Assembly (NCBI GenBank): GCA_963969495.1
Contig: OZ018321.1
Coordinates: forward strand, 67,097,035 to 67,161,034
DNA length: 64,000 nt
Direction: 5' to 3'
DNA from: Ceratothoa steindachneri
Lineage: Eukaryota > Arthropoda > Malacostraca > Isopoda > Cymothoidae
The translations under genes were made by a program, and so were the position numbers. The notes beneath the pieces are model-generated. The model worked only from the letters and a program-made list of their open reading frames with translations. It was not told where the DNA came from and made no database searches. The first letter of the stretch is position 1, and every line of letters begins with the position of its first letter. Positions 2,956 through 47,139 of the stretch are shown piece after piece.

Positions 2956-3815
2956 CAGTGTGAACTGTTCAGTAGTTCTTGGCAAGTCGATGGAAAGTTA
3001 TAGCGTTGAACAGCGTGTGCAAATCATCAAATGTTATTATCAAAATCAGTGCTCCGTTCGATAAACGTTCCCCAAAAAATAATCTTCAGTGACGAGGCCC
3101 ATTTTTGGATTAGTGGATTTGTGAACAAGCAGAATTGTCGAATTTGGGAAGAAAACATTTCAGGATGAAATACACCAGAAGCAATTGCACCCCAAAAAAG
3201 TCGCTGTTTGGTGCGGATTTTCGTCTAACGGAATCATGGTCCCTATTTATTTGAGAACGAAGATGGGATTGCCATATATGTCAACGGCGAGACCTACAGA
3301 TCGATCACAAGCAACTTCTTGTGGCCCTTAACTGGATTATATGCCTGATATGGATACCTACGACATGTGATTCCAACAGGACGGCGCTACGTGCCACACT
3401 GCCCACACCACGATAGACATTATGCACCAGCAATTTCAGGCCAGGGTCATCTCGTGCAGCGGCGACGTCAACTGCCAACCAAGATCATGCGATTTAACGC
3501 CATTACACTAGTTTCTTTGTGGCTACCTTACAGCGCAGGTCTATGCGAATAATCTGCCAACAAGTGATGCCCTCAAAGTCAACATAACGAAAACCACCCA
3601 ACAAATTCTGCTAGATTTAAAGGACAAAGTTATCTCAAATTGGGCCTCCCAAATACGCTCCACCAAGCGAAGCCACGGGAGACATTTGAACGACATCATA
3701 TTCCACACTCAATGCCATAAAATGTACTTTCAAATTTAAAATAAATTGAGTGCATATATCACACACAACTTTTTTGTTTACATTTAAAATTTAGCGACCT
3801 TATTGAAAGAACCTA
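2956..3815 (+). mobile_element. DD41D-type Tc1/mariner, internally deleted copy, 5'-truncated
   Basis: Transposase start 'MESYSVEQRVQIIKCYYQNQ' (2,990-3,050) is joined by an internal deletion to the catalytic domain. The codons for the first DE are visible ('FSDEAHFWI', 3,086-3,112), then 'KKVAVWCGFSSNGI' (3,197-3,238) and 'QQDGATCHTAHTTIDIMHQQ' (from about 3,375). There are 41 residues between the second Asp and the position of the third catalytic residue in 'CDLTPLH', where D has become H. That spacing is the one reported for rosa-like (DD41D) elements. The right inverted repeat (about 3,792-3,812) reads, in complement, GGTTCTTTCAATAAGGTCGC and abuts (TA)7. The left end is lost at the join with the preceding mariner; similarity to the sister copy at 23.8-24.5 kb begins at about 2,956. 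Frameshifts and stops show it is inactive. Confidence 0.8.
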
Positions 3816-13884: not shown

Positions 13885-14672
13885 CCTATTAAATGTGCAC
13901 TGAAGAACGTGCTTTCTTACTCTGAGCTCGTTGATCCTTACGCACCAGTGACCATATATAGTCATCCATTATAGTAGTGTGCCATCTTCCTTGGTATCTT
14001 TTCTACACCTTCAGCAATGTCCTGCTGGAACGGCTCACCATGCTTAACACTCACTTCTCGCAAAATGTTCACGAAATAAATCCAAATATGAATGCAAGAT
14101 GTGCACCTTTAGTAACATTCTACATCCTAAATTCTGATAACTTTCTTAAAGTTTTGCTACCAGCTGCTTGTAGTTTGTGTGTTTAGTTTCACCAATGAAT
14201 CTATCAACTATATTTCGAAATGCACAGCACGCCTCACTTTCAAAATCACTCATTGCATTCTCAAGTTGGACTCACTTCAACATTTTCCTTACTTGTGGTC
14301 TAGTAAATATACTACCCTTAACTTTGGCCTCTGATAGCTTTGGAAAGAGTAGGTGAATCGCTTGAAATGCTTCTTGTCCATGAACTACTGCTTTTATAAA
14401 CTGTTTGACCAAACCAAGCTTTATATAAAGTGGAGGTTACAAACCTTTGGCATGCTCTACAAGAGACTGTCTAATAACATTTAGTTTTCCTGGCTACAAG
14501 TCATCTCGAGGGGGCCAGTCAACATTCTGATAATGTTATGTTCATGATCAGCCCTACTGTCCCATCGGCAAAGAAAACATGAATACTTGGTGTACCCACC
14601 CTGTAATCCTAGTAAGAAGGCAAGCATCTTAAAATCACCACAAACATCACATTTAAACTTAGTATGGTTTAC
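13885..14672 (-). pseudogene. C-terminal half of an uncharacterised invertebrate protein family
   Basis: Read on the minus strand, the pieces in order are: 'CGDFKMLAFLLGLQGGYTKY' then 'SCFLCRWDS' (about 14,660-14,570, with the C-x2-C of a possible metal site); 'DWPPRDDL' and 'PGKLNVIRQSLVEHAKGL' (about 14,520-14,450); 'PPLYIKLGLVKQFIKAVVHG' (about 14,440-14,380); 'KLSEAKVKGSIFTRPQVRKM' (about 14,345-14,285); 'DFESEACCAFRNIVDRFIG' (about 14,250-14,190); 'RKLSEF'; 'AHLAFIFGFISCTFC' and 'EKRYQGRWHT' (about 14,005-13,975). I remember this layout from many unnamed proteins in hydrozoans, aphids and sea lice; no function is known to me. Several frameshifts and stops make it a pseudogene. It continues the 5' half at 16,296-17,280, from which it is separated by an insertion. 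The family may itself be transposon-linked, because a second copy lies at 61 kb. Confidence 0.72.
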
Positions 14673-14720
14673 TGTAGGGGAATCGTCACTCCCCCCCTCC
14701 CCCCGTTCACTCTTGGTGGA

Positions 14721-15166
14721 GTCACAAAGCGGTTACCGCAAAGACATCCGGCCCAGGCCTAAGCGGGCCAAACGCGTGACCGCAGCGCTGCACCACTCGG
14801 TGCCATGAAAGACCCTAAGGTTCAAAATGCAAGATCTCCCCCAGGAGAGTGAGATCCAGTTTCACGTCAAATAAGAAATTGAAGACGTGTTTCTCCCAAG
14901 CTCGAAGGCTAACGAGGAGCCGATGTAAGACTCGGTGTGAAAAACCGTTGGGCAAAAGAACTCTCCTGGGGCCGTCCTCCAGCCCCTCCCTCCCTTACCA
15001 CTCCCCCAGTGGGGCGACAAGGTATAAATGAGGAACAATGAGGAAAATCGAGGTAGTATACGTCAGATTTAAGGTGACAAAGTCCTCGATTAAAACCGAG
15101 CTACCTAGACTGGATGGGTAGTGTACTTGGCTCGCCAGACCAAGAAGTACCCTACAAGAGAGGCAG
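14721..15166 (+). ncRNA. Hairpin-rich structured segment, 5' part
   Basis: Inverted pairs follow each other with little space between them: GTCAC (14,721)/GTGAC (14,776) enclosing GCGG-TTA-CCGC (14,729-14,739) and GGCCC/GGGCC (14,750/14,765); GCACC/GGTGC (14,790-14,803); GATCTC/GAGATC (14,833/14,851); CACGTC/GACGTG (14,863/14,884); CCCAA/TTGGG (14,895/14,948) enclosing CTCG/CGAG and CCGA/TCGG; GGGGC/GCCCC (14,968/14,982); CCACT/AGTGG (14,998/15,008); ATCGAGG/CCTCGAT (about 15,047/15,082) enclosing GTCA/TGAC; GTACTTGG/CCAAG-AAGTAC (about 15,123/15,140). It resembles a branched RNA fold. The strand is assumed to be plus from element orientation. No similarity to rRNA, tRNA or a spliceosomal RNA was recognised. 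Confidence 0.55.
15023..15029 (+). promoter_or_regulatory. TATA-box-like site inside the LTR-like insertion
   Basis: TATAAAT stands in a GC-rich setting after the C-rich U3-like segment. If this is the LTR promoter, transcription would start near 15,050-15,060 and the hairpin array would lie in the transcribed R/U5 leader. This is an inference from position only. Confidence 0.35.
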
Positions 15167-15187
15167 GGCTACCTACCTTAAGGGGCT

Positions 15188-15806
15188 AAGAAGAAGCTCA
15201 TCCTCGAGCTAGTCCCTGGTTATCAAACCAAACGATAAGTTAACTTTGTTAAGGTTAACTTACTCTCGCCAGAGAGAATCCTCATATACTGGTGCACCTT
15301 AAACACCAGGAGTATTCCTCGTCCTTGAGGAATTAAGAAAAGAAGAAGGAAAACGATTCCTTCTCGAGCTCGTTACTCGGTGGCCAACCGAACTTCTAAT
15401 TTAACTTGGTAAGGAACCAAGTTTAAATTATTCTCGTTAGAGAAACCCCCCTCCGTTATACTCGCCCTTGAAGAAGACTGGAACTAAGAAGAAGCTCATC
15501 CTCGAGCTAGTTTCTGGTTACCCAACCGAACTTTAAGTAACTTATTCTCGTCAGAGAAATCCCGTCTCATCGATTCTCGCCCTTGAAGAAGACCCTTCCC
15601 GAGTTCAGTCCTCGTCCATGAGGAATTAAGTAACAAAGAAGAAAAGCTCCCCCCCGAGCTCGTTACTCGGTGGTCACACCGCACTCCAAGTTAACTTGGT
15701 TTAAGAACCAAGTTCGACTCCCTCTTGCCAGAGAGACCGCGACTACCTTGGTGTTGCATAAAGCACCGTAGTTGTTCTCGTCCGTGAAGAACTCCCCTCC
15801 CCCCAG
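15188..15806 (+). ncRNA. Four-unit tandem array of covarying hairpins
   Basis: Units A (15,188), B (15,341), C (15,486) and D (15,635) follow an alternating A-B-A'-B' pattern, with A to C 298 bp and B to D 290 bp apart. In each, the order is hairpin 1 (AGCTC/GAGCT in A, C and D; AACGA/TCGTT in B), hairpin 2 (TGGTT/AACCA; TCGGT/ACCGA; TGGTT/AACCG; CGGTG/CACCG), hairpin 3 (TAAGTTAAC/GTTAACTTA; AACTTGGT/ACCAAGTT extended by TAATTT/AAATTA; TAAG/CTTA; AACTTGGT/ACCAAGTT) and hairpin 4 (CTCTC/GAGAG; TTCTC/GAGAA; TTCTC/GAGAA; CTCTT/GAGAG) with loops GCCA, GTTA, GTCA, GCCA. A and D also have hairpin 5 (GGTG/CACC inside ATACT/AGTAT or ACTAC/GTAGT). Hairpin 6 has a GTCC-type loop (ATTCCTC/GAGGAAT in A, TCCTC/GAGGA in C, GTTCT/AGAAC in D). 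Paired substitutions keep the stems. No long ORF spans the array. Function is unknown; it may be part of the leader of an LTR element. Confidence 0.75.
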
Positions 15807-16295
15807 AATACCGTGTTGACCCCCCAGCTGCTACACACGCCAAAACGACCGTGTGATCTCATCCATCTACATCTGGCTAGACGGCACGCGTCCTGAGTCA
15901 ATAACATTCCTGATGCCTTTTAAACTCCAGATGAGTCCGTAAGCCTAATTTTTATATTATTGTCGTGTGTAGAGAAAGTAACCAATTTTTGAGGGTCAAA
16001 CTAATTTAATTAATTCTGATTTATGATAATATTCAGAGTATTGCTGTAGTTAATGTTTAGATGTTGTGTTTTCAATGGTTAAAGTTAAAAATAAGTTTAT
16101 TTTTGGATTATTGTGCGTTTCTATTATATCCTTACGTGTTTCGGAACGGCTCTGTTCTTTAAGATATTCAGATATCAATATATTAGCACTCTTAGCACTC
16201 TTAGAACAAAAAGGGGGGGGGGGCATTCTACGACACACTATTATAAAAGTGGTGTCAAGTTAGTAGGGTTTTTATTAGAAAGAATTCTACGACAT

Positions 16296-17280
16296 TTACC
16301 TTCTCGAAAAGCTTTTTACTTTGTCATATTCTTCCTTCATCTGTACCGAGTAAGTTATAGGCAGAGATGGATACTGAATTTCATTGTGTAGTAAAATAGC
16401 TTTGAGTCTTTTTGTAGAACTATCTATTAAAAGCCGCCATTCTTTAGGGTTCTGATCAATTCCAATAACTGTAAATAATTCATTAATGTCTTTTAAGAAG
16501 CAGAGATCCTCACTTATATCAAAGTATACGTGGAATTCCTCATCTTTCGTCCAGAAAACTGTTGATCTGCCGTCCTTCCTCAACAGATTCCAATCATTAA
16601 GTCTAGATGCCAAAAGCTCAGCTCCTGACTTAGTGACATAGGTCCCTGGTGAGATCATCCAATTCACGTTGATTTGGAAAGTGTGGGCGGGTACTCATTC
16701 TTTGCTCATGCATTTCATTCATTTCTTCATTGTCACAAACTTCCAACTATCCTGATAAGACCTCCATCATGCCCTCTAGCTGAAAAAATTTATATAAAAA
16801 GAGATGCATTTAATAGCTTGAGCATAAATTAGGATTGCATGTGTAATCACATTACAAAATACTTAGCTAATTGTTTTGAATATCTCAGTATTGATTCTGT
16901 TACAAAGACTATACCTTACAATTTGATAGAATTTACTTTCATTTTCTGGCGGCTGTGGAACTAATAAGGTATCATCATGTGACACAGGTGCAATAGAAGA
17001 GGAAATATTGAGATATGTAAGGCATTTTCTTCCCTTAACTTTTATATACTTTGATATGTCAATCATGTAAAAATAGCAATGATCATGATGATTTTGGGGG
17101 GCTGACCAAACTCTTGGACCAGCAAAGGGCATTGCTCTTCTTGCATCTCTCAGCCATGCATCTAAATTTGATCGACAACTTCCAGAAAAACACATGAAAC
17201 GCCCATGGTTTTTCTTGGTCACCCATACTCATTCCAAAGTACAGTCTATAATTAAACCAGTACTTTGCACCTTTCATAAT
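16296..17280 (-). pseudogene. N-terminal half of the uncharacterised invertebrate protein family
   Basis: On the minus strand, 'KGAKYWFNYRLYFGMS' (17,277 down) leads, in a second frame, into 'WLRDARRAMPFAGPRVWSAP' then 'QNHHDHCYFYMIDISKYIKV' (about 17,160-17,040), 'LNISSSIAPVSHDDTLLVPQ' (about 17,016-16,957), then 'AELLASRLNDWNLLRKDGRS' (about 16,617-16,560), 'YFDISEDLCFLKDINELFTV' (about 16,530-16,465), 'EWRLLIDSSTKRLKAILLHN' (about 16,444-16,385) and 'YPSLPITYSVQMKEEYDKVK' (about 16,376-16,317). This is the recognisable N-terminal and central part of the same family as 13,885-14,672. A frameshift near 16,310 (KSFSRR versus KLFEKVN) precedes the insertion point at TTTAC. The interval 16,670-16,860 looks like decayed linker or intron. 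Confidence 0.75.
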
Positions 17281-17567: not shown

Positions 17568-17569
17568 TA

Positions 17570-18839
17570 AAGGGTGATCCATTAAGACGGATCGAACTTA
17601 GCAGTAAATAAAACAGTATTATTGGTGATAATTTATTGATTTCACTATTAGATCATGTTATTTGAGTCATGGCAATTATGTACGAAAAATAATATCGCCT
17701 AAATGTCCGCTAAGGCTTCGGCGGCACACCTCCACTCGATGGTCAAAATTTTTGATGACGTCTCTGCATAGTTGCTCCTTGATCTCACCAATATGCCTTA
17801 TTATCTCATCCTTCAGCTGTTGAATTGTTGTTGGCTTGTTGGCATATACCTTACTTTTGAGGTGACCCCAAAGGATGAAATCTAAAGGCGTCAAGTCACA
17901 CGATCCTGGTGGCCAATTAACCTCGCTGTTTCGAGAGATGATGCGACCTGGGAACTTCTCATTCAATAAAGCCATTGTTGCATTGGCTGTGTGGCATGTG
18001 GCGCCGTCCTTTTGAAACGACGAATCTTTGACATTCATAGAATTTAATTCTGGCCATAAAATTTGGTTATTATGGCACGGTATCGCTCGCCTGTCACCGT
18101 AATAGAATTCCCGGCCTTATTTTCGAAGGAATACGGCCCAATGATTCCGCTAGCAAAAAATGCACACCAAACGGTGACCTTTTGTGGATGCGGTGGCTTT
18201 TCAACAATCTTCCTGGGATTTTCGTCAGCCCAAAGGCGACAATTCTACTTATTAACGAATCCACCAGGATGATAATGGGCTTCATCACTAAAGATGATTT
18301 TTGCGAAAAATCATCATCGGCTTGTCTTTGCTCCTGCACCCAAGTGACGAATCTACGGCGCTTCAAATGATCAGCAGTCTTCAGTTATTGTGTCAATTGA
18401 ATTTTGTAAGCGTGTAGAGACCAATCGTTTATCAAAATTTGATGTAACGTTGTTTTCGAGAGGTTCCATTCCTGCGCGCGATGACGAATAAAGGTGTTTG
18501 GATCTTCGTCCACATTCTTGCGCACTGCAGCAATGTTTTCAGCTGAGCGGCGTAAACGAGCACGCAATGGCGTTTTCATATCTGCCACGGAAACCGGTTT
18601 GTTTGAATTTACCAACAATTTTCCCAATTTCACTCTCGGTTGGTCGAAATGTGTTTCTGTTTGAACGTCCATTTTCATAATAGGCTTCGATAACTTTAAA
18701 CACGTTGTTCGATTGTTATCCTTTCCATGGTTGAAATTGCCAAAGACTGTAGTTGTTAAATCTGAAAGAAAGAGAAAAACTTCATTAGATGCTTAAACTT
18801 AACTCCCATTTAAATTCGGTCTAAGTTATTGGAACACTC
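17570..18839 (-). mobile_element. DD41D-type Tc1/mariner transposon, copy 1 (full length, dead)
   Basis: Ends are AAGGGTGATCCATTAAGACG at the left and, in complement, AGAGTGTTCCAATAACTTAG at the right, with TA beside each end. The minus-strand transposase is broken into about three frames: 'LRARLRRSAENIAAVRKNVD' and 'RHRAQEWNLSKTTLHQILIN' (DNA-binding domain, about 18,560-18,420), 'LKRRRFVTWVQEQRQADDDF' (about 18,370-18,305), 'SGIIGPYSFENKAGNSITVT' (about 18,150-18,091), and 'FQKDGATCHTANATMALLNE' to 'CDLTPLDFILWGHLKSKVYA' (18,018-17,840). Counting from the D of DGATCH to the D of PLDF leaves 41 residues between, the spacing reported for rosa-like elements. An approximately 30-base loss near the N terminus is seen relative to the second copy. 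Frameshifts show it is inactive. Confidence 0.88.
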
Positions 18840-19001
18840 TATATATGAGAAACAGCACAGGAATGGAGAACCGAGCTTAGTCGGGGGATGAATTTGGCTA
18901 AATGTAGTTAATGGAAAAAAAATCCAGAACAATTAGTCTTCAGGCCGGAACAAGCAAATATTAAATTAAGTTGAGAAAATTTTAAGAAGTTAGAGCTTAT
19001 A

Positions 19002-22984: not shown

Positions 22985-23748
22985 GAATGTACCTGGTATT
23001 TTTGTTTCATTACTATCTTGCCTATATATGAAGCCACTTTTGACTGCAACAAATCGAAAATAAAGGATTCGGTTCCCAAAGAACATAATAACTGGGGTGT
23101 AGAGGATTGGAAACGTTCATGTCGTTCGATGAATATAGGTTTACCCTCTTGCAGAGTGATGTGCGCATTAGAGTATGGCGAGAACCTCATGAAGCATTGG
23201 ATCCATCATGCATCGTTGCCTCCCTGTAAGCACCTGTAGCTAGTGTAATGGTCTGATGCTGTTTTAACTGAGCTGGACATGGATCTGCAACCCTCTGCAT
23301 CAAGAAGATGAAGTCCCGCTAGTACTTGCAGATCCTGGACGATCAAGTTCGCCACTCAATGGACTTCTTATTTTGGAATGGTAATGGAATGTTTCATGAC
23401 GATAACGCGCGTATCCACCGGTCTAACATCGTCGAAGATTATTTTACTCAGCATAATGGATCATTTCGGCATATTGAATGGCCACAAGAGTCGCCAGATT
23501 TAAATTCCAAGGAGAAGTTATGGAATGAGCGTGAATGAAGCCTGCGTGCCTCATCGTCTCTTCCATCATCATAGAACGATTTGGGGCTACGGCTGCTGGA
23601 ATTGTGGCTAAAATTGAAGCTACAGAAGATTCAAAAGCTTGTAGAATCAATGCCAGATAGGATAAGAGCTGTAATTTTATCGAGAAGAGGTCCAATACTT
23701 TATTAAATAATTATTACACTGAAGGACTTTTACTTTGTCCAGGCAGTG
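22985..23748 (+). mobile_element. Tc1-like (DD36E spacing) transposon fragment, 5'-truncated
   Basis: Catalytic-domain pieces run 'KPLLTATNRK' (about 23,030-23,060), 'WGVEDWKRSCRS' (23,090-23,125), a decayed first-Asp region, 'WIHHASLPPCKH' (23,200-23,238, decayed), 'YLQILDDQVRHSMDFLFWNG' (about 23,323-23,382), 'DDNARIHRSNIVEDYFTQHN' (23,399-23,458) and 'FRHIEWPQESPDLNSKEKLW' (23,464-23,523). From the Asp of DNAR to the Glu of KEKLW there are 36 residues, the DD36E spacing described for 'Incomer' elements. The right end CACTGAAGGACTTTTACTTT with GGCAGTG then TA (to 23,748) matches, in complement, the 41.47-kb end of a sister copy. The left end is missing. Confidence 0.8.
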
Positions 23749-23759: not shown

Positions 23760-24544
23760 AGGGTCTTTCATTAAGGTCGCTCGATTTTTAAATGTAAACA
23801 AAACAAGTTGTGTGTTATATATGCACTCAATTTATTTTAAATTTGAAGGACATTTTATGGCATTAAGTGTGGAATATGAGATCATTCAAATGTCCACCGC
23901 GGCTTTGCTTGGTGGAACGTATTCAGGAAGCCCAATTTTCGATGACTTTGTCGCATAAATCTGGCTGAATTTGCTGGATGGTGTTCGTTATGATGACTTT
24001 GAGGACATCAACTGTCTATTGTCGCGTGCGCAGTGTGGCACGTAGCGCCGTCCTGTTTGAACCACATCTCGTCAGTATCCATATCAGGCATATAATCCAG
24101 TTGAGGCGACAAAAAGTTGCCTATGATCGATCTGTAGGTCTCGCCGTTGACGGTTATGGCAATCCCATCTTCGTTTTCAAATAAATAGGGACCGATGATT
24201 CCGTTAGATGAAAATCCGCACCAAACAGCGACTTTGTTGGGGTGCAATTGGTGGTGGTGTATTTCATCTGGATTTTTTTCGTCCTAAATCCGACAATTTT
24301 GCTTGTTCACAAATCCATTGATCCAAAGATGGGCCTCGCCACTGAAGATTATTTTGGGGGGAACGTTTATCAAACGGAGCACTGATTTTGATAATAACAT
24401 TTGATGATTTGCACACGCTGTAAACGCTATAACTTTTCATCGACTTGCCAAGAACTATTGAGCAGTTCACACTGAGGTTGCCAGATGTTGCCGTAACAAC
24501 ATCGCCACTATCGCTTGACAAAGCTTGAGCGTCCTTGTTGAAAG

Positions 24545-34038: not shown

Positions 34039-34479
34039 ATTATCAGCATCAATTACTGAAAAATGCGGGTCTAGGCGAATTTACGACAAAAATTCATCAC
34101 CAAGCTCAATTTAGCGATATAAACAATTAAACAACTCACTGATGAGAAATCAAAGAAAAGTAGGAATAATTTTAATTTGAAATCAATATATGACTAGGTC
34201 GTGTTTTAATTCGTGATTTAGCATACATTTATCATTGATATAGGGAATAATTGCTTTCATAGCCTTTATTTGGGATTTTATAAAAGCAAAGTATTATTTT
34301 TTTTCCCAGTATTTATTAAGAATTATTAACATTATTTAATGACATAACTATTAAAAAATGACGAATTTGTTTGAACTAAACTTATACCTAGAAATTGGGG
34401 AATTTAATATCAGAAAGCTAGTTTATGGGCTATTGCTCGCAAATAATCAATGATGAGGCTCTGTGAAAATATCTTTCTA

Positions 34480-35766
34480 AAGGGTGTTCCATTAAGACGG
34501 ATCGAAGTTAGCAGCAAATAAAACAGTGTTATTTATCAATTTCACTATTGGATCATGTTATTTGAGTCATAGTAATTATGTGTGAAAAATAATATCGCCT
34601 AAATATCCGACAAGGCTTCGGCGGCACACCTCCACTCGATGGTCAAAATTTTTGATGACGTCTCTGCATAGTTGCTCCTTGATCTCACCAATATGCCTTA
34701 TTATCTCATCCTTCAGCTGTTGAATTGTTGTTGGCTTGTTGGCGTATACCTTACTTTTGAGGTGACCCCAAAGGATGAAATCTAAAGGCGTCAAGTCACA
34801 CGATCCTGGTGGCCAATTAAACTCGCTGTTTCAAGAGATGATTAGACCTGGGAACTTCTCATTCAATAAAGCCATTGTTGCATTGGCTGTGTGGCATGTG
34901 GCGCCGTCCTTTTGAAACGAAGAATCTTCGACATCCATAGAATTTAATTAAGGCCATAAAATTTGGTTATTATGGCATTGTATCGCTCGCCTGTTACCGT
35001 AAAAGCATTCCCGGCATCATTTACGAAGGAATACGGCCCAATGATTCCGCTAGCAAAAAATGCACACGAAACAGTGACCTTTTGTGGATGCGGTGGCTTT
35101 TCAACAATCTTCCTGGGATTTTCATCAGCCCAAATGCGACAATTCTACTTATTAACGAATCCACCAAGATGAAAATGGGCTTCATCACTAGAGATGATTT
35201 TTTGCGAAAAATCATCATCGGCTTGTGTTTGCTCGTGCACCAAATTGACGAATCTACGGCGCGTCAAATGGTCAGAAGTCTTCAGTTCTTGTCTTAATTG
35301 AATTTTGTAAGCGTGTAGAGACCAATGGTTTATCAAAATTCGAAGTAACATTGTTGTGGAGAGGTTCAATTCCTGCGCGCGATGACGAATAGAGGTGTCT
35401 GGATCTTCGGCCACATTCTCGCGCACTGCAGCAATGTTTTCCGCTGAACGGCGTAAACAAGCACGCAATGGCGTTTTATATCTGCCACCGTCCCAGTTTG
35501 TTTGAATTTACCAACAATTTTCCCAATTGCACTCTCTGTTGGTCGATTATGTTGACCCCAAAAATCGCGAAGTGCCCGAAATGCGTTTCTGTTTGAACGT
35601 CCATTTTCGTAATAGGCTTCGATAACTTTAACACGTTGTTCGATTGTTAATCTTTCCATGGTTGAAATTGCCAAGGACTATATTGGTTAAATCTCGAAGA
35701 AAAAACAAAAAATCATTAGTCACTTAACTTACATTTAAATTCAGGCCAAGTTATTGGAACACCCTT
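34480..35766 (-). mobile_element. DD41D-type Tc1/mariner transposon, copy 2 (full length, dead)
   Basis: A 1,287-bp element with ends AAGGGTGTTCCATTAAG and (complement) AAGGGTGTTCCAATAAC, flanked by TA at 34,478-34,479 and 35,767-35,768. The minus-strand transposase begins MERLTIEQRVKVIEAYYENG (35,659 down; an upstream Met gives MAISTMERL), then 'FRALRDFWGQHNRPTESAIG' (about 35,590-35,531), a frameshift near 35,490, 'LRRSAENIAAVRENVAEDPD', 'RHRAQELNLSTTMLLRILIN', 'DDDFSQKIISSDEAHFHLGG' with the first Asp (about 35,216-35,157), a frame change, a second-Asp region, and 'TPLDFILWGHLKSKVYANKP' (34,791-34,732). It is nearly identical over most of its length to the copy 16.9 kb upstream in the same orientation, so both descend from recent activity, yet both are frameshifted. 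Confidence 0.9.
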
Positions 35767-35768
35767 TA

Positions 35769-36560
35769 TAATGTTTTTTCATCTGTTCAGAGGAGTAACG
35801 ATATATCTTTATATGTGGTTGAGATGAAGTACCAGCCAGATATTGATCGACAATGGCATCATTACCGATTTTTTTTTTTCTTCATGCCATCAGCAACCAG
35901 TGTCTCATATCTCCTATGCTATCCTTCAAGCGAAATATTTGTTTTTGGTAAATAATGTAAGGCGGTTTTATAAACATTTCCTATCCCGAGCTCAAACTTC
36001 AGAGGTTTGCGAGTTTTTTTTTCGAGGAATTGTGTGTCGATGAATGGTGTCTAACGATAAATTGAGCTGGTCTATGAATTATTTTTAATGAATTATTGTC
36101 CGTGAATTGATGTCGGAAAATTTTCCAGTTCCCAAAAACAAAATTACAAAAATCAACAGGTAAAAACTACTTAGAATTTAGATACGCAACGATTTATCCT
36201 CTTCAGAGTTTGAAACGATACTAAACATATACCCAAGAAGGCTACTCTCGTAAAAAATTGAAGTTTACATGAAATAAATATTCAATTGCCGGATAGGAAC
36301 TACTTGGATGCTTGAGACTTAATGATCTACATATGTATATTATGGTGTCTAATTTTCTCAAAGCAATTCTTTTTGAAAATGAAAAATGCTTTCGCTCTTT
36401 GTCTAATTTAAACATCCGTAGATTTGATCATTGCTTTGGAATCCTTCAATGTAATGAGCCTCTTTTTTTCGATGTTTTACTTAAGGTGCTATAAAGGATA
36501 CCTAATTTAAGAGCCTTTTATGTTGTTTAATTTTGTTCACAAAATTTATACTTCCACCAA
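35769..36560. other. Unassigned AT-rich DNA
   Basis: ORFs of 60-66 codons with no motif. Nothing else seen. Confidence 0.45.
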
Positions 36561-36564: not shown

Positions 36565-38745
36565 TTTTGGAGACAGTCCGCGGAGAGGATTGTTTATACC
36601 TAACGGATTCGGTGTTTAACACCGAGCCCAGGTCCGTTACCATAGTAGATCCTACTCTCTGCGGCTAGGTTGGCTCAGGGAGAATGTTTATCTTAGGGGC
36701 GGCCTCCATGTGGTCATGCCCTCCCCCTCGAGGAAATCATAGGTCCAATTGGATAGAACGTCTTTGGTCGGGAAAGAGAGGGGGGCACGCACGATGACCT
36801 CCTCTAAACTCAATATTTGAACCCGCAGGTTGTCTTATGAGAAAAGGGGTCGAAGCGCATGGTCTTCCCTCCTACACTTATGGGGGAGCGGCTCTATTGT
36901 GCCGCTCCCAATTTGTTGCCGCCTAACTTTCTGGTAGTCCCCTTAGAATGTAAAAGGGTAATTGCCGCTAGAGAAAGGAAATCACTCAAGGGCGGCTCCA
37001 GAGAAGGGGGTGAAGGTGAGTGCCCAAAATCAGTAAGCAAAGGAGAGGACTAAGCCTCCTCTCCGGTTGAAGAGATTTGGATGGTGCCCTCCGAGAACAC
37101 AAGGGAGGTAAGAACCTACATTTTTTCTTTGGATCTGCCCGAAGTCTGCTCCGTCGATGGTGAAGGGGAAAGGAAGAGTGTTTTATTTTTTAAATTCTTT
37201 TCATCGGGCATGGGTCCCTATTTGTTATACGGGAGGTAAACGCTAATCCCCTCGCAGTAGCCCGCTCTACGAGGGTAGAACACGGGCCTGGCAGGACCAG
37301 CTGCCCTCATTTAGGACCACACCTGTCACCTCACTAGACGGACAGCCCTTTGGCATGGCGGCTCCACCTTTGGCTGGGCGTAAAATCAATATATATTGAA
37401 AGGAGAGAGAAAGAGGTAGGTCAGGAAGGTGTGAGTGGGAATAAAACAAATTAACGCTAAGCCCAAGGGGGAGCCGTCATCCAGAATCGCTGCCCGGTCC
37501 TTGGGCAGGAGGAGTGGTCTTGAATGGCCGCAGCCGTCTTACTAGCGGCACATTCCCCATTTACTTCGCCAGGGGATTGCCAAGAAAGCACGCCAGCGGC
37601 CTATAATTAACCGCTTTTGCTGGGAGAGCTTCGATATGGTTAACCCCTTTAGGGAGGCAAGGGATGACAGGGCCCATCGGTCCGTGCCTTCTAAATTCCT
37701 ACTAGCGCAAATTTCAAGTTTATAGCGCGTCAATGTACTTGACTCCCTCTCTTACACAACAAATGCCGGTTCGCTGGCATAAGAAGAGACACAAGGTACC
37801 TTTAAAGGTATCCGTAATGTCTTGGGTGGATTGGGCACATGGAGACTCCTCCTTAAGATGATCCAGCCCCAGACGGTAGGATCTTCCATGGGTTCAAACC
37901 AGGGTTTGGTGCAAATCGCAGAACCCGCGTCCTTCCCTGTGCAAGCTTCCCTTTAGGCGGCTCATACCCCCAAGGATTCGCAGGCAGAAGAGGGACCTCT
38001 TCTCCAGGCTGTCACCCCTTTGAGATCCAAGACCTTCTCCCTTTCAGTAAAGGATCTTGCTGATGACGGTTCATCCGTCCTAAAAGCTCCTGCCGGCGGA
38101 TGCGAGAGTCGAGTTCATTTCCCACTGTCTTCTCCTAAAAATAAAAGAAAATATAGGGCAAAAAGACATTGGGATCCTCTCCCCCTGCCGGAGACAATGA
38201 GACGGACGGGTCTGATTCCGTTTCGGTAAGCGACCAAGCAAAGATCGGCACGTCATGCCCCGGTTCTTCCCCGGTTGGGTCTTCAACGACCGTGACTGAA
38301 CAAGCAGACCACGTTTCGCTTTTATTCACACTGATAACATGGCAGGAATACGGGAAGCCCTCCAGGCTGCTTAGAAGAGTAGATGGAAAACGGTCGAGGG
38401 GAACTTAAAGTTCCGTGTCATTGCGCCACGACTGTTGCCATGGACCTTCCCTACCCCTCAAATGCCACTACGGATTCTTGTTACTTTCTCTCTTCTCCGA
38501 ATTGGATACAGTCGCGGGATGCACCCCCATTGGATAGAATGCTGGCCTGCGCCTTATTGTGATGACTACGTTGTCCCCAGAACTGTGTGGCACATTCTTC
38601 TGAATGTCCCAGTCTGAATGATCTTTGCGCATGTTACCTGTCCTGGTACTGGAATTAGCGGTATCGCTACCGCTTGTCCCTTGTACTCGGGACTGCTTCG
38701 TACAATTCATTTGACTGTTTGTTGTTAGCATACCCTCATCGCTGG
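36565..38745 (+). mobile_element. LINE-A copy 1: ORF1 region fused to the 3' end of ORF2
   Basis: An abrupt rise in GC starts near 36,565. The ORF1-like part (about 36,850-38,280) shares pieces with the copy at 44.4-45.2 kb (for example GGGAGAGCTTCGATA near 37,620 against GGGAGCGTCTAGATA near 44,787, then GGGCCCATCGG against GGGCCCACCGC, and ATCCGTAATG near 37,810 against 44,970). It then passes directly to the ORF2 end: from about 38,325 the sequence (CACTGATAACATGGCAGGAA, CCGAATTGGATACA, CGCTACCGCTTGTCCCTTG) follows the copies at 46.5 and 56.5 kb. Endonuclease, RT and most of RNase H are missing, so there is an internal deletion. No frame is intact. The 3' UTR is interrupted at about 38,745 by the CR1-like element and resumes at about 40,625. 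Confidence 0.65.
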
Positions 38746-38754
38746 AACGGCTAA

Positions 38755-40620
38755 GCGGTCTGAGGAACTCTGAGTTGCGAGGCTATGTAAGGAGAATCCT
38801 AAGAAGTTCTTTGAATATGTAAACAGCCGTAAACCAATCCGTCAAACGATTGGCCCTTTGAAGAATGAGGAGAGGACATTAAAGCATTCAGATAAAGAAA
38901 ATGCTAACCTCCTCAACGACTAATTCTCTTCAGTGTTTACTGAAGTGTGCGGTCCTATCCCCCAGCCGACGGATTCCTACTCGGGGAAAATCTGGAGGAT
39001 TTGGACTTCACCCAAGAAGAAATAAAAAAGAAGATCAGTGACCTAATGACGAATAGGTCACCTGGCCCGGCTGGGTTTCTACCTAAAGTGTTGAGAGAAG
39101 TGCGCGATCAAGTGTTACGACACCTGAGCGCAATCTTTAACATGTCAATTCGGACCGAATGCGTTCCTAGAGACTGGCGTGAAGCGAAGGTGACTCCTAT
39201 CTTCAAGAAAGGAGACCGTAGCTAACCGTCGAACTACCGACCTATCAGTCTAACTTCGATACTCGGTAAACTCATGGAAAGCATCATGGTGGACAAAATG
39301 ACGTCGCATTCAGAGTCAAAGCTGTTACTGAGGAGTTTACAGCACGGCTTCCGAAGGCAACGGTCATGCCTGGCGAATCTTGTGGAATTCTTCCTCTTCG
39401 TCTTCATTGAGCGCGATCGGGACAAGGCGGTGGATGTGGTCTACTTCGACTTTCAGAAAGCCTTTGACAAGGTACCACACTGCCGCCTCCCTCGAAAAGT
39501 GCGAGCGCGGGGCATAGACGGAAAGGTAGCCGACTGGATAGAGAACTGGCTAAATGGCAGATGGTAACGGGTGGTGGTGAATGGGCAGGCTTCTGAGTGG
39601 GTGCCCGTTACTAGCGGAGTCTCTCAAGGTTTTGTCCGAGGACCACTACTATCCATCATCTACGTCAACGACATGGACGGTGACATGGTTGCCAAGATTT
39701 CTAAATTTGCCGACGATACCAAGCTTGGTATAAACGTTGCAAAGGATGGAAATACTGCCCGCCTGCAAGATGATCTTCAAAAGATTGGGAAATGGGCTGA
39801 TACGTGACAAATGCCTTTTAACGTTAACAAATGCAAAGTGATGCATATCGGCAACCGAATCCCCAATTACCTATATCATTCAGGGCACTGCTCTTGAATC
39901 TACCGACACTGAGAAGGACTTGGGTGTAGCTATCACGTGTGACCTCAAGTTCTCGAAACAGTGTATTGAGGTGGAGAAGAAAGCCCAAAGGATGTTAGTG
40001 TATATAAAGCGATAGTTAGGATATCGGAAGAAGGAGATAGTACTGTGTCTGTTCAACTCCCTCGTCCGACCGCACCTGTAGTATGCCGTACAATTTTGCA
40101 GTCTTTCATTTAGAAAGGACATCGCGAGATTGGAACGCGTGCGAGCCAGGGCAACCAAACTGATTCCCTTTATCAGACATAAAAGTTATAAAAATAGATT
40201 AAAGGAATTAGATATGTTCTCGCTGGAGACCCGGAGACAACGTGGTCAGCTTATCGAAGTGTTTAAAATACTTCGAGGCTTCGACGGACTGTACTACGGA
40301 TATATTTTCCAGCTCAGCGAGATGAGAACAAGAAATCACGGCTTCGAACTTAAACTGAAGCCACACCACTATGATTTGTGTGGGAAATTCTTCACTTACA
40401 GTATCTGCGGTAGTTGGAAAGTACTTCCGACGGAAATTATCAACAGTGAATCTGTTGACCAGTTCAAGTCAAGACTAGATAAAGTCTTGCGAAATCACCG
40501 TTAAGATCCTCGCGAGTGATCTTCGAGGTTACAAACGGACACCTTCGAGGATTGCGCCCAAAGTATCCTCCTTGTATGGACCGTAAGGTCTTCTAGGGTA
40601 CTTTTTCCTTGTAACTCCTT
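38755..40620 (+). mobile_element. CR1-like non-LTR retrotransposon, RT domain nearly complete
   Basis: It begins inside ORF2 after the endonuclease ('KKFFEYVNSRKPIRQTIGPL', about 38,800-38,862). RT motifs are in order: 'RSPGPAGFLPKVLREV' (39,055-39,105), 'NYRPISLTSILGKLMES' (39,231-39,282), 'GFRRQRSCLANLVEF' (39,346-39,390), 'YFDFQKAFDKVPHCRLPRKV' (39,441-39,500, first catalytic Asp), 'VTSGVSQGFVRGPLLSIIYV' (39,607-39,666) and 'KISKFADDTKLG' (about 39,694-39,729, catalytic FADD). The thumb is 'LVRPHL' to 'SFRKDIARLERVRARATKLI' (40,058-40,160), and the C terminus ends 'SVDQFKSRLDKVLRNHR' then a stop at 40,502. Only a handful of stops (39,223, 39,565, 39,806) and a frameshift near 39,860 break it, so it is one of the younger elements here. 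The 3' UTR ends near 40,620. Confidence 0.9.
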
Positions 40621-40624
40621 GTAG

Positions 40625-40800
40625 CTCTTTGCTTTCTATTCTTGCTTGATTTGTTGTTGTTGTTTTAGCCTGTGTCTTAGCCTTTTACCTATTTATTTAT
40701 ATATTATTTGTTTTTTAATCAACCTAACATTTGGCTTGGGTGTGAGTATGGCAATTTTTTTCCCTAGTAGGCAGTCACCAGATAGGCTCGCAAAAAAAGA
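40625..40800 (+). mobile_element. LINE-A copy 1, 3' UTR tail beyond the CR1 insertion
   Basis: The end of this stretch (about 40,722-40,800: CAACCTAACATTTGGCTTGG, then CACCAGATAGGCTCGCAAAA) corresponds to the tails of the copies ending at 47.13 and 57.15 kb (GCCAGATAGGCTCCTAAAA in the latter). It therefore belongs to LINE-A, not to CR1. Confidence 0.6.
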
Positions 40801-40860
40801 GAAAAGAGAATAGATTTTTCGGATAAAAGTTTTATCCTAATTGCGAAAAAAATACGCGTA

Positions 40861-40951
40861 AGAGTGAGGATCGAACCAAGTACAACGAGGCAGCGAGCAT
40901 TCGCTTTAATCTCAATTAAAGGAAAACTTTAGAATACTCGGCTACGCAGGA
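40861..40951 (-). repeat. tRNA-like sequence (SINE head or tRNA pseudogene)
   Basis: In complement the sequence carries an A-box-like TAGCCGAGTATTC (40,932-40,944) and a B-box-like GGTTCGATCC (40,868-40,877) about 60 bases apart, in the order of a tRNA with a long variable arm (Leu/Ser type). Acceptor and T-stem pairing is poor, so it is not a working tRNA. Confidence 0.35.
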
Positions 40952-41468
40952 TAAAAAAAGGCGTTTTTTCTTTTTTTGCGGATACACTCATTTATTTTCA
41001 TCCCTCTCTTGCGTTGATGAGCCATATATTGTATAATTGCGCCGCGTTTAACTATATTTCTCAAGTGTACTTTGATTACCCAATAATTTTCTCTCTTTTC
41101 TAGACCAGATCGACATAGTGGAACTCACTTCGAATGGTCGCCTATTCGAGAGATACCACTACTAAAATTACAATTATTGGTAAACACTTTAAGTATCTGG
41201 GAGCAATCTTGGAAGCAAGTTCGAAATCAGACCACAAAATTTTATTCTAATAAAACGATCACTTGCTTCATAACAACAACACTTTAGTCCCTTTGTAACG
41301 TTTTCTACAACGTTTGCAATTAAATCTTATTTTCAGTTATTAAATTTATTGTTAAAAATATGCCTCACAACATAGAATGGTGTATTTATAAAATTACATG
41401 TAAAGATTAGCTAAAATATGTATGTTATCTGCTAAGTTAGCACCTTCCTGAAAAAAACAATTAATATG
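40952..41468. other. Unassigned DNA
   Basis: AT-rich, no ORF, RNA or repeat identified. Confidence 0.45.
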
Positions 41469-42545
41469 CACTATCTGGCCAAAATAAAGGTCGTTCAGTG
41501 CAATAAGTAGTTAATAAGCTAATAATAAGTTAATAATACAGCACTCATCATATCTGGCATTGATTATACAAGTTATACATCTTGTGTAGCTTAAATTTTG
41601 GCCACAATTCCAGAAACCGTAGACCCAAATCTTTCTATGATGATGGAAGTGGTGATGAATCATGCAGGTTCCTCTCATGTTATTCCCATGAATTTTCTAT
41701 GGGATTTAAATCTGGCGACTGTAGTGGCCACTTAATATGCTGAAATAATCCCTCATGCTTGGTGAACCAATCTTTGACGATATTTTCTTTGTGAATGCGC
41801 GTGATATCGTACTAAAATATTCCATCGCCATTATGAAAAAAGAAGTCTATTGAGGGGTGAACTTAATGCTCCAGGATCTGCAAATACTCTCAGGACTTCA
41901 TCATGTTGTGCAGATGGATGCAGATCCATGTCCAGCCCGGGTAAAACAGCCCAAGATTGGCACACCCTCTCCAGAAGCCTGCACGGAGGCGACAATGCAT
42001 GATGTATCTAATGCTCTATGAGGTTCGTGTCATACCCTAATGCGTGCATCGAACTGAAAGAGCGTAAACCTAGATTCATCGAACAACAAGAGATGTTTCC
42101 AATCGTCTAAACTCCAGTTTTTATGTTCTTTGCGAACTGAAGCCTTTTTTTATTTGTTGCAGGCCCAAGTGGCTTCCTGATTGAGGCGTAGCTGCGTACA
42201 TGCATTTTATTTATTTCACGACGCATAGTTCTCTTTGAAATAGTTTTGGGACCTTCATAGAACATGCTGGTTCACTGCTGCGTCGAACACCGCTGATTTT
42301 TCTTGACCAAACGCTTCAAGGAGCGCCTAGCTCTTTCATCAAGAATTTGATACCAACCACATTTGCTTTGAGATGAACAGGCTTCGCCATCTTGTTTCCA
42401 GCGTGTAATGGTTCTCTTATAGTCTTCATGCCTACACCTGTTGCTCTAGAGATATCACGTGTTGATTTGCCACATTCATGGAAGGTGACGATACATCCTT
42501 TGTCAAATAGAGTAGTCTTTTCCACGCGTCTTTATTCTTGCAGCT
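41469..42545 (-). mobile_element. Tc1-like (DD36E spacing) transposon, second copy
   Basis: The minus-strand N terminus 'MEKTTLFDKGCIVTFHECGK' then 'STRDISRATGVGMKTIREPL' (42,525-42,406) is a paired-like helix-turn-helix. Decayed middle pieces include 'SRRISGVRR' and 'LGLQQIKKGF' (about 42,170-42,130). The catalytic domain gives 'YLQILEH.VHPSIDFFFHNG' (about 41,895-41,833), 'DITRIHKENIVKDWFTKHEG' (41,810-41,751) and 'FQHIKWPLQSPDLNPIENSW' (41,744-41,685), with 36 residues between Asp and Glu. The right inverted repeat (41,469-41,500) CACTATCTGGCCAAAATAAA matches the complement of the end at 23,748. The same family as the 23-kb copy, opposite strand. Frameshifts and stops throughout; the left end was not found. 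Confidence 0.8.
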
Positions 42546-43561
42546 CCTCGAAAAATTAGTTCAGTTATAACATAGCATAACATAATTTCACGGATGGCAA
42601 AAGCCACCACGGCCTTTTAAGACAAAATCTATTACCTCACCGGAAAAATATTACTTACCTTTTTTGTTTAAAATAGCTTAAACTGCAGGACCCTGGAGTT
42701 AAAATTAAACGAGGAGATTTGGAAGGTTATTACGCGCTAAGTATGTGACGGTGTCCATATATTTCGCAAAGGTGTTACGGTTCAGTGTCTCTCTCTCTCA
42801 CAGGCTGTATCTAAAATAGGGCGCAAAGCAGATGTTACAGAGTGAGAAACGGAGTGAGTAGCGTCAAAGGCCATCTTGCGTAGTACGTAGCGAAATTTGC
42901 ACGTGTATCTACGCGTACGTACTTCATGGAAAAAATCGTGGGCTAAAGGAAATTCCCGCCAGAATTATGGCTTTGAAAGAGGATAGTGACGGGCTAAGAC
43001 TGTCAGAGTATTTGACGGCTTGCATTTAAAATTCACTTCCCTTTCGAACAGAAAGAGCTACAAGACGTCAACTCTGGCCCTTCGACCCCCATTACTGAAA
43101 GAACACTCTACGGGCCATTGTATAGCATTCAAATATGGTGTAGAATAGGCGCAACAAGCGATTGCGCAATTCTGGCCACAAAGTTACTCGGCCTCGTGTT
43201 CATCGTAAACCTAATGAGATTTTCCCAATTAGGACTGCGTGCTGGATGCAGTTTAAGTTGAAGGCGACTCTGTGTTTTAATTATGAGGAACTGAGTCCTT
43301 TGGTTGATGTGGAAAACAATATAGACCAGTAATGCTAACATCTAGCTGCAGGACGACCAGGTTTTGTCGTTTGCCTTAATCTTAAATGCCTTGCAGAGGA
43401 GTAACTTGTGTAGCCTCTACACTTGGTACCTGCAGGAGCTTCACATCCTCAAGCACTGAGTGCAAATTACGGAAGTTCTGCCGTTGGGTTCATTTTAATT
43501 CTCTGATGGGTCCTGGGAAAGTTGTTTGTGCGCTTTGCCCTTGCCTACTCTCAGCACTACT
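42546..43561. other. Unassigned DNA of mixed composition
   Basis: A 70-codon minus-strand ORF (43,129-43,341) and a 76-codon plus-strand ORF (43,386-43,616) show no motif. Slightly GC-richer than typical background; it may hold old repeat debris. Confidence 0.4.
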
Positions 43562-43788
43562 TTGCTTTTTTATTAATATTATTAGTTATTATTATTCCTA
43601 TCATCTTATTATTTAGTATCATTAATTGTATTATTAGTATTTATTAAGAAATATTATTATTATGATTATTTATTATTATATATAATTATTTTTTATTACT
43701 GTAATTATTATTGGTTTAAGTTAGTATTATCATTTATTAATATTTATCCTAATTTAATGATATTAATTATTATGATTAATACGGCTCT
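43562..43788. repeat. TTA/ATT-rich low-complexity tract
   Basis: About 220 bp composed almost only of A and T with imperfect ATT/TTA triplets; it directly precedes LINE-A copy 2. Confidence 0.9.
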
Positions 43789-43794
43789 ACGTTT

Positions 43795-46700
43795 AACCTT
43801 TTCTACCCGTCCTTTGTACCAGGAGGAGTGTGTCAACCTGGATAGAGTTCGGTCCAGTGGTCAGGGTGGATTGGTGGAATTCATGCCATCCTGAGATTTG
43901 CTGGCACCAAGGTATGATTATAATACGTAATCATACATCGTCTGGTTAAGTGTACCTGCCTCTCTCTACTTTTTTATAATACATACCCTCTGACCCCTTT
44001 CCAAAGTTTCTCTTCTATCCAAAGTGGTTCTGGTTGCCTAGCGAACTTTAGTCCTGTTATGAGCCTTAGTCGAGTGGCAGTGTATACCGTGAGGTCCTTA
44101 CCTACTGCAAGGGCCGAAAGCCTGCTTGCTAAGGGGAGAATTAGGTACGGGGTTGTTTGAGTCGTCGACTGTGCACACCTTGCCATAGTACACATAGAAG
44201 GTGGCTATGCTGGCACCATCCTTTATGGCTAAAGTTTCAGGACAATTTCGCTTAAATGGTGGGCCGGGATGGACTATGTGTAAATGATCAATTTCGGAAA
44301 TTTCTGTTTCTATGGAGACTTTTTTTTAACCTCCCAAGTCATTAGGAGCTCATAGTACCTGCTATTCATAAGTCCTCTATTTTTTTATATTATGGTGACA
44401 AGTGGTAAGGATAGTGGGGTTATGAATGAGGATACGTCTCCAAGCGCGGTCTTTTCTTCTCTATGTGTCGGGGAGGACGAAGTTACACGTGGCATCACTT
44501 AGATCATTGTCAAGACTTCCCTCTCACCATCCGTCTGCAGCAAAGGGGCTTCCCCTTCTTCATCTTTAGAGACGCTCTCGGAAAGCTCCACCTCTGAAAA
44601 GTAGGTTTCCCTCCCTGTGATTTTTTGTCTCCTATGTCTACGGGTGAGGTGGATTCCCCTTTAACCCCCTTATCTGGAAGCGTCTTCGGGCGAAAATATT
44701 TCCCTGCCAGCGGCAGGCCCTCCTTTACTAATACAAGGTGACTGTCAAATGGCCAGGTAGACGGACCACAACAAATGCTTCCGTTGGGAGCGTCTAGATA
44801 GGACCAGCCCCCTTACTGGTGCAAGTGATAGCAGGGCCCACCGCTTCTTGCACCCTACAGTCATGCATTTACAACTTTCAGGGGATCGGTGTGCTTGTGC
44901 CTCTCTCTTCCCTGATAAATATCGAACGCACGCCAGAAACGACACGACAAAAAGTACATCGAATCAGATCCGTAATGCCTTTGGGAAAGTGCCACATGGA
45001 AGCCACCACTGAAATAAACATGGTTGACAGGAGCCTTCTGGCGAATGCGTTTGATCCCTCCAAAGGGGCCATGATTAGTGCCCTTCGGAGAACTTATGGC
45101 GCGCCGGTAAGTGTGAGGCTATAATCTACCATGATTTTTTTTAGTAATTTTCGAGGGAACTCCATATAAAGCATGACATTAGAGCTGTCGACCATGGGGC
45201 GGTCAAGTTTGAAATAATGATAAAAAAACAGGGAAGGACCTCAAGACCCAACTCTACACTCTTCGTTACGTTCTAATATGTCGGGCGTGCGGCTAGATAT
45301 CAATACTGCGGGAAAGTATTTGTGCCATTGCCACTGTGCTACTAATACTGCTACCGACATACGAATCGGTCATGTAGACCTGCGAAGTCAGGTTTATCTG
45401 AAATGTGTCTACGTTGCTCCAAGGCCGTAAAAGATAATACCCTGAGTCCCTATTGTTTATGTACACGTGTGTCAAATACGATGAGCTGCACTCTGCTTCT
45501 TAGAAGCAACGTGAAACGTATCTCCTGGAGAACAAAATCCTGGGCGTTTAGGCTACAAATCCTCTTTCATTTCACGAGGCTTATGACTTGCTCCTATCTT
45601 CCATAAGCTGTTTTTGCTGGAGACCATGCTAGCTAGCCCTTGCCATAGGTATGAGGGTTCGGCAACACCACCTCCACGAGATGCAGACTGGATAGGAGGA
45701 TTCGCTTTTGATACTCGGCATTATGTCTCGGCTGGAAGTGGTGGACTCACCTTGGAGGCTCAAATTCAAACCCTTACTTTTTATCGATCCTTTGTTCGTT
45801 TGAAGCTCGACTACGGATGCGAGTTTTATGCATCCGCAGCCGAGCGTGTATTGCGGAATGTGGACGAGATCCACCGCACTTCACCCGTTGAGAGCCTAGT
45901 TGTCGATCCTGGTGAGATGCCACTCCCTCTGCGCCTTATAAAGTGTATTATCCCCCTGTACGCACGAGCCTGGTTCGTCCCTCAATCGTGAACATCTCTC
46001 ACTCTATTCGCAGCTGATCTCAATGGTGCCTATGCCGCAGGGAGGCTCCATTGATACCCTAAACCCTTTCTAAACCCAAAGGATTTAGGGCTAGGACACT
46101 CCTCCAAAGGTTTAGTATAGCTATCGGGCTGATAGTGCCCCTGGTTCTGCCAAGGACGCCACCCTAGGAGGTACCACCTTTGACTTTTTGGTCTGTTTTC
46201 ACGGTGTGCACAGTCTGTTTGAAGTCAACAGCTCTCATCCAGGCAGTGCGTCTGGCTTCACGGCCTAGCTAGTTTCAATACCCCGCTCGGTACGGGAGAT
46301 AACGCGAAGTGCCCTCTTCGGAGCCCGCATTGTGACTTTTGCGACTCACACAGCACCCTGAGTGCTCTCAGGGCATTTGAATCCCCGCATTTCCTGGTTC
46401 GCGATATCCGTGACACCACGGTTTTGCGAGCCCTTGGATATCGAGATTATCTTCTTCTGGGACTTGTAGCAATTGCGTGGAATGAGCGCACCGATGAGGG
46501 CAACAAATAGTCTGTGAGGCCTCGGCGACCATACCAGCGTTTTGCTCTTCCTCACACTGACTACTTGACAGGAATACGCGCTGCCCTCTGGGCGGCTTTG
46601 CAAATAAATAAGATGGGAGAGGGTCGAAGGGAACTTAAAGTTACGTGTTATTGCGCCGACACTGTTCCCATCGACCTACTCCCAATGCCGCAAAGACTGC

Positions 46701-47135
46701 GCTGTACTACAGACTGTTTTGCACATTCATGTTGAATGTACCAGTCTTGAGGATCTTCTCGTATGATACCATTTCTCTATACCCGGATGAGCGTGGTCGC
46801 TACCGCTTGTTTCTTGTACTTGAGATGGGCTCGTTTGGAGGATGCTGACCTCCTCCTCCTTTATTTGACTGTTGATTTTTTTATTTTTTGTAGGTTGCCT
46901 GTTCCTGCACCTTGGGGAAGCGGGCCAACCCCAGACGCTGGAGCGGACTTCTTTCTTGCCTTTTGCTTTGTTTTCTTGTTGTTTTTAATTTTTTTTGCCT
47001 TTGTCCTTTTTCATCGTTTTTATTGGTTATTTACATAGTGTGATTTGTTTTGTAATGTAGCCTAGTAGTAGGCTGCGTTGTGCACGGGGACCTATGCCCA
47101 AGTATACCTTCGCCAGATGGTCTTCGGAAATGAAT
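43795..47135 (+). mobile_element. LINE-A copy 2: ORF1 region, RT thumb and decayed RNase H
   Basis: The ORF1-like part (about 44,400-45,600) ends in a Cys/His-rich stretch 'CHCHCATNTATDIRIGHVDL' (about 45,330-45,390) resembling a zinc-knuckle region, then a C-terminal segment 'KILGVQATNPLSFHEAYDLL' in shifted frames (about 45,535-45,595). It then jumps to the RT thumb: 'LTFYRSFVRLKLDYGCEFYA' and 'SAAERVLRNVDEIHRTSPVE' (45,774-45,893), and 'SLVVDPGEMPLPLR' (45,893-45,935). RNase H is decayed ('SLFGARIVTFATHTAP', about 46,313-46,360). The 3' part (46,540 on) matches copies at 38.3 and 56.5 kb. The tail is near 47,135. Endonuclease and RT palm are absent. Confidence 0.75.
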
Positions 47136-47139
47136 GTAA

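Follow-up and report, generated by a model that had tools for sequence, protein, structure and literature searches.

The questions raised by this locus were what carries a tandem array of hairpins in the genome of Ceratothoa steindachneri, whether the stems of the array have been kept as RNA structure, and what such a structure may do. The window, i.e., the whole stretch of DNA that was analysed (64,000 nt), contained the array at 15186-15797.

The 1171 bases around the array were matched at 88-100% identity in at least 40 places of the 3.93-Gb genome. Only the best candidates were scored, so that 40 is a lower bound and the 8313 first-look candidates for this query are not a count of copies. 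With a diverged copy (L039) as a second query, there were at least 44 match rows (10591 candidates). Copies aligned with their surroundings had sharp common ends at window positions 14673 and 16235, and the features of the window copy were as follows:

14668..14672, no strand: left copy of the target-site duplication TTTAC, equal to 16295-16299.
14673..16235, + strand: long terminal repeat (LTR), TGTAGGGG...TTCTACGACA, ~87-93% identical to dispersed copies over its full length.
16236..16283, + strand: start of the internal region (48 nt), which contains the primer-binding-site-like TGGTGTCAAGTTAGTA (16250-16265).
16284..16294, + strand: 3' LTR end remnant ATTCTACGACA (11 nt), left by an internal deletion.
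16295..16299, no strand: right copy of the target-site duplication, equal to the left copy.

The window copy, 1622 nt between the two TTTAC, is therefore nearly a solo LTR. Its LTR termini were TG...CA, as in the direct terminal repeats of LTR retrotransposons. Exact 5-bp target duplications were present in 23 of 41 rows, a tally in which L004 and L009, which are one locus, were counted twice; 12 of the 18 rows without exact duplication were LTRs of paired or tandem elements, adjoining an internal region. Paired LTRs occurred in eight elements, with ~1.9-2.1 kb enclosed and an LTR-LTR identity of 90.2-96.5%. Of the 41 rows, 9 had the words TGGTGTCA... after the LTR and GGGAGGTG before it, with an offset of four bases in one of them. 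The site after the LTR (TGGTGTCAAGTTAGTA or TGGTGTCA) would presumably pair with the 3' end of leucine tRNA (tRNA-Leu) and is taken as a candidate only. The TG...CA repeats, the 5-bp duplications and the LTR-internal-LTR pairs identify the element as an LTR retrotransposon, and the host of the hairpin array is the LTR of this many-copy element. Conspicuous hairpins in an unprocessed window may thus belong to one of very many copies of a mobile element. One locus (L009, G000:C7:129121000-129130900) had three LTRs with two internal regions of ~1.9 kb between them, the units being 98-99% identical, in a Cassandra-like tandem.

Between the LTRs of one element there was a 414-codon open frame rich in Glu and Arg (L046:498-1739:-), which was open in some copies only. 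The 414-aa product had no Pfam match, and its 388 residues from the first Met to the stop had no homologue at E 1e-3 among 7996 scored candidates; nothing therefore ties the frame to Gag, and its identity as gag was rejected. A pol gene was not found either. The element would be non-autonomous, because only ~1.9-2.1 kb are enclosed. TRIM and LARD elements do not code for protein, and their internal region is very short (TRIM) or several kb long (LARD). With an internal region of ~2 kb and a frame open in some copies, the present element was placed in neither class.

The sequence-only reading knew of no named RNA family with this architecture, and there were indeed no Rfam 15 matches at gathering thresholds in the window; the one weak match (E 0.35; 14500-14554) was outside the LTR. 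A free-standing RNA gene or a known RNA family was rejected, the array being part of an LTR and without Rfam match. The element was not classed as a retrozyme (no hammerhead ribozyme match at Rfam thresholds) or as Cassandra (no 5S rRNA match in Rfam). A bacterial or phage origin was also rejected: there was no match to phage records, the 21-base H2 pattern was present in 0 viral contigs, and the three prokaryote contigs with this pattern gave unit-model E values of 0.24-5.8, i.e., at chance level.

The orientation of the element is +, since the internal region, with the primer-binding-site-like TGGTGTCA, lies 3' of the LTR on the + strand. Upstream of the array there were two promoter-like features:

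15023..15029, + strand: TATA box TATAAAT, with TATAAA in 38/40 aligned LTRs; its function is presumed.
15063..15067, + strand: TCAGA, a possible initiator, in 32/40 aligned LTRs; a putative start site.

Transcription probably proceeds from the TATA box, and the array, being downstream of the conserved TATAAA, would be carried in the RNA leader. It would be expected at both ends of the RNA if the 3' end falls beyond the array. Among the 40 aligned LTRs no AATAAA was common to at least 10 copies, and AATATA at 16089 (36/40) and at 16177 (33/40) were the only such shared words. The stretch from the possible start site to the array (15055-15190) folded no better than its shuffles (83/200). It included a hairpin at 15120-15155 with CUCGCCAGA, similar to the H4 motif, in its loop region. 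After the array, the splice-donor-like word GTGAGT was present at 15893 in 32/40 copies and absent from the window copy; a leader spliced there would bypass the ATGs shared at 16023-16075.

The order of four units (A-B-A'-B') claimed by the sequence-only reading was borne out at 15186-15797 by the repeat families found, with the boundaries set in the present analysis:

15186..15335, + strand: unit A, with H1 15195-15210, H2 15217-15230, H3 15236-15262, H4 15263-15276, H5 core 15289-15309 and H6 15315-15332.
15336..15483, + strand: unit B, with H2 15377-15391 (one base short in the window copy), H3 15397-15430 and H4 15431-15444; H1 is broken in the window copy and GGCUC/GAGCC in 33/50 copies.
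15484..15627, + strand: unit A', with H1 15493-15508, H2 15515-15528, a short H3 15534-15544, H4 15545-15558 and H6 15609-15624.
15628..15797, + strand: unit B', with H1 15645-15660, H2 15668-15681, H3 15689-15719, H4 15722-15735 and an H6-like hairpin 15774-15792.

Three sets of arrays were used (46, 50 and 82 arrays). L034, L045 and the part-LTR in L048 (same DNA as L036) were dropped at the span filter, and L001 (a duplicate of the window) and L004 (a duplicate of L009) were set aside. With a unit model (R1) applied to 14 loci, all 15 complete LTRs had four units apiece, L045 had three, and the internal regions gave no hit with an E value of 1 or below; R1 was built from such units, so that only position and number are informative. 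The number of units can change, and seldom does so in this sample. The three units of L045 probably resulted from recombination between units.

The H2 and H4 stems of the window copy were as previously written. The H4 pattern YTCTYGYYAGAGAR occurred four times in the window, always inside the array (0/100 shuffles). The H4 stem CTCTT/GAGAG, listed as one of the unit variants, does exist in the window copy but is a minority state (UG in 3/82). A common loop had been noticed in H4 only, as G-Y-Y-A; the feature shared with H2 is RYCA. The commonest loops were AUCA, GCCA, ACCA and GUCA in H2, and GCCA, GUCA, GUCA and GCCA in H4. RYCA was thus the commonest loop in all eight H2 and H4 hairpins, and was present in 5/8 of those of the window copy itself. 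Preceding H2 there was a further hairpin, H1, with AGCUC/GAGCU in A, A' and B'.

Not all the stems first described were retained among copies. The H5 outer stems, to which compensatory change had been ascribed, were not borne out in the other copies: 15288-15313 formed a standard pair in 1/82 copies and 15743-15771 in 3/81, with the inner GGUG/CACC kept. H3, said to stay paired throughout, did so in part. The unit B pair 15400-15427 was U-A in the window copy only, being G.A in 27/50 and G-C in 21/50 copies; H3 length varied, A' kept just the four-pair base, and unit B' had lost two pairs. The H5 outer stems and part of the unit B H3 are accidents of the window copy, and such details, private to one copy, can mimic compensation.

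The array folded better than its shuffles (z -5.26, 0/20). In sliding 150-nt windows on the + strand, z was -5.0 at 15225-15374, -4.1 at 15300-15449, -3.4 at 15600-15749 and -3.8 at 15675-15824. Folding was ordinary at 15450-15599, which contains most of A' (38/100 shuffles as stable). Relative to shuffles, the + strand folded more strongly than the - strand.

A repeated array carries its own paralogues, so that a single molecule is enough for reading covariation. Pairing between units was compared with shuffles on the named structure, using 32 unit cores, 31 of them distinct, taken from 8 copies and giving 805 cells; the unit alignment (A2) used 8/82 copies, and in its H1 columns most B units were shifted by one base. 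The cells paired were 90.9% of 805 vs. 87.1 in shuffles (0/500). Cells changed on both sides were 44 vs. 20.1 in shuffles (0/500), slid controls giving 0-6, and the covariation score was 0.161 vs. 0.103 in shuffles (0/500). Two of the five measures were not above shuffles, namely the number of pairs showing a double change (6 vs. 5.0; 170/500) and the number of additional pair types (18 vs. 18.0; 353/500), and the covariation comes from four unit lineages only. On the same gapped alignment, unconstrained RNAalifold called H4 alone.

Four pairs of H1, H2 and H4 varied between units: A-U/G-C/A-U/A-U, U-A/C-G/U-G/C-G, U-A/G-C/U-A/G-C and C-G/U-A/U-A/C-G. All 16 of their 16 cells were paired (random deal of the 3' letters, P 0.0035); with four H3 pairs added, 28/31 cells of the eight variable pairs were paired (exact deal, P 0.0009), the commonest pair states for this test being entered by hand. 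On the + strand there were G-U intermediates: the outer pair of A'.H2 was UG in 63, CG in 8 and UA in 4 of 82 copies, and the B'.H3 pair 15692-15716 was in the G-U state in 46/50. The proposal that stems are kept through paired changes between units accordingly stands for H1, H2 and H4, partly for H3, and not for H5. These paired changes are suggestive of past conservation of the hairpins at the level of RNA structure.

The comparison among copies bore on the more recent history. The 114 named pairs in 50 copies gave 5689 cells, of which 5468 were standard pairs, and there were three paired and three unpaired double changes between copies; covariation among copies was nearly absent, and the copies differed mostly by private changes. 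Divergence from the column majority was 2.5% in stems vs. 3.75% in the rest of the array (CpG sites and runs excluded). On the tree of 82 arrays, internal-branch changes were under-represented in stems (39 internal and 295 terminal, 39/334) relative to the other array columns (117 internal and 586 terminal, 117/703; P 0.041 filtered, 0.017 unfiltered). For shared vs. rare variants, P was 0.08-0.20 with filtering and 0.007-0.039 without it. Of the changes away from a paired state, 15/51 on internal and 135/373 on terminal branches (doubles included) kept a standard pair, and transitions of the G-U type were less frequent within stems (61:78) than in the rest (185:137; P 0.008). Selection on the present copies was rejected, with as many double changes kept as broken and no G-U enrichment in stems. 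Selection on structure, as originally argued, thus finds support in the source lineage's past, weak support in its more recent history, and none in today's copies. In our reading, the source lineage was constrained while the units diverged, and the inserted copies decay freely.

It is proposed, tentatively and with somewhat less than even confidence, that the array is a stretch of LTR whose predicted leader hairpins are a repeated site for packaging or dimerisation by the Gag of a partner element. The array would be transcribed downstream of the TATA box into the RNA leader, the leader would fold in the cell into four sets of short hairpins, and the partner's Gag would bind the repeated hairpins, with the RNA being packaged or dimerised as a result, and so copied. 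What an element with apparently little coding capacity would mostly need is a promoter, a site for the primer, a purine tract and a means of entering the particle of a partner. The proposal is drawn from the leader position, from the repeated nature of the array, with eight RYCA hairpins in four units, and from the analogy with parasitic LTR elements that depend on a packaging signal. One tetraloop class present eight times in a repeated array may fit multivalent binding by Gag or nucleocapsid better than a single-site function. In the parts available of the source on tapeworm TRIM elements, mobilisation depends on packaging through a PSI element that is conserved in secondary structure only and hard to identify (PMC4558846), and the available account of BARE2 describes a parasitic element that lacks Gag and retains conserved dimerisation and packaging signals (PMC3735527). 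In the same available parts, such signals are located or expected close to gag or within the internal region and not in the LTR, which counts against the proposal. The ordinary fold of A', the calling of H4 alone by RNAalifold and the neutral decay of the present copies were likewise counted against packaging, as were the four unit lineages behind the covariation, the two measures at shuffle level and the lost H3 pairs of B' and G.A state of B.

That the array is instead a structured 5' untranslated leader, by which scanning is slowed or bypassed and translation of a short ORF controlled, with no part in packaging, was considered unlikely. An array placed after the TATA box and before the internal ORF would suit such a role, as would the presence of a single AUG (15618) common to at least 10/40 copies from 15029 to 15930, the mean of 1.8 ATG vs. 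7.1 CAT per copy at 15055-15829, and the splice-donor-like GTGAGT after the array in 32/40 copies. The scarcity of AUG was within the range of dinucleotide shuffles, however (2 seen, 3.4 expected; P 0.29), and was rejected as proof of a scanned leader; several ATGs are shared in the 3' part of the LTR (16023-16075), and only some copies have the ORF open. A regulatory function is common among tandem repeats of LTRs, and the units could be sites with dyad symmetry for factors acting downstream of the promoter, i.e., palindromic binding sites whose folding as RNA is incidental. The arms of H3 are palindromes in their own right (AAGTTAACTT), and among recent changes G-U pairs were not favoured over broken ones. 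This reading at the DNA level was judged improbable: the repeats are downstream of the TATA box, the + strand is the one that folds more strongly relative to shuffles, and loops and stems obey RNA-like rules, with G-U states of A'.H2 (63/82) and of B'.H3 at 15692-15716 (46/50) that the opposite strand would show as mismatches.

Little probability was also given to the view that an inverted-repeat unit pair was duplicated, that young copies make the stems look conserved, and that the paired changes are few and fortuitous. There are only four unit lineages and few informative pairs, fixed breaks are present in stems, and the filtered shared-variant test was not significant; against this view, all 16 cells of the four variable H1, H2 and H4 pairs were paired (P 0.0035), double-changed cells numbered 44 vs. 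20.1 (0/500), and internal-branch changes were fewer in stems (39/334 vs. 117/703; P 0.041). Within the packaging proposal, a stronger form is doubtful, namely that the eight RYCA hairpins in four tandem LTR units are a packaging and dimerisation signal of new design, capturing the Gag of a partner by multivalency. If true, the signal would occupy the two RNA ends and be carried by each solo LTR, and an element coding for little or nothing would have spread to very many copies.

The leader of murine leukaemia virus has paired hairpins with GACG loops. These resemble the present hairpins in being short, repeated in the leader and closed by conserved tetraloops, and differ in their loop (RYCA here) and in that the present hairpins are inside the LTR with about four repeats. 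Among the structured LTRs found in the literature search, as described in the parts of the sources available, all were of other kinds (Cassandra 5S RNA, retrozyme ribozymes) and none had a hairpin array. Cassandra, a plant TRIM, is non-autonomous, as is presumed here, with a structured RNA sequence within each LTR, and forms LTR-internal-LTR tandems as L009 does at C7; it differs in its 5S rRNA and pol III promoter, the present element having a TATA box, a four-unit hairpin array and no Rfam match (PMC7215508, in part). Retrozymes are non-autonomous retroelements with a functional RNA structure in the LTR, both of which are predicted here, but theirs is a hammerhead ribozyme, with none here at Rfam thresholds (PMC9695139, in part). 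The animal elements ta-TRIM (tapeworms, PMC4558846) and PbTRIM (ant, PMC3532108) are, in the available portions of their descriptions, non-autonomous LTR elements with short target duplications as well, much smaller than the present one; the packaging signal of ta-TRIM is supposed to be between its LTRs (PMC4558846). BARE2, parasitic on BARE1, shares the inability to make Gag and the retention of packaging and dimerisation signals, putative in the present case, but is a copia-type plant element with pol, and its signal is not described as a repeated LTR hairpin array in the text available (PMC3735527). An array inside the LTR is a short, movable piece and can be tested.

Other repeats were present in the window. 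Two transposon copies were located at 17568-18845 and 34478-35770, with repeat blocks 83-96% identical, and their reading frames are presumably fragments of a mariner/Tc-like transposase. A dispersed three-copy repeat family with 62-87% identity extended over 38319-56843 (e.g., 38381, 46611 and 56545; also 46224, 53249 and 56221). Two long inverted repeat pairs (3010-3740 with 23835-24421, and 23117-23630 with 41579-42091) were 77-91% complementary, with their arms ~18-21 kb apart, and are probably copies of other mobile elements.
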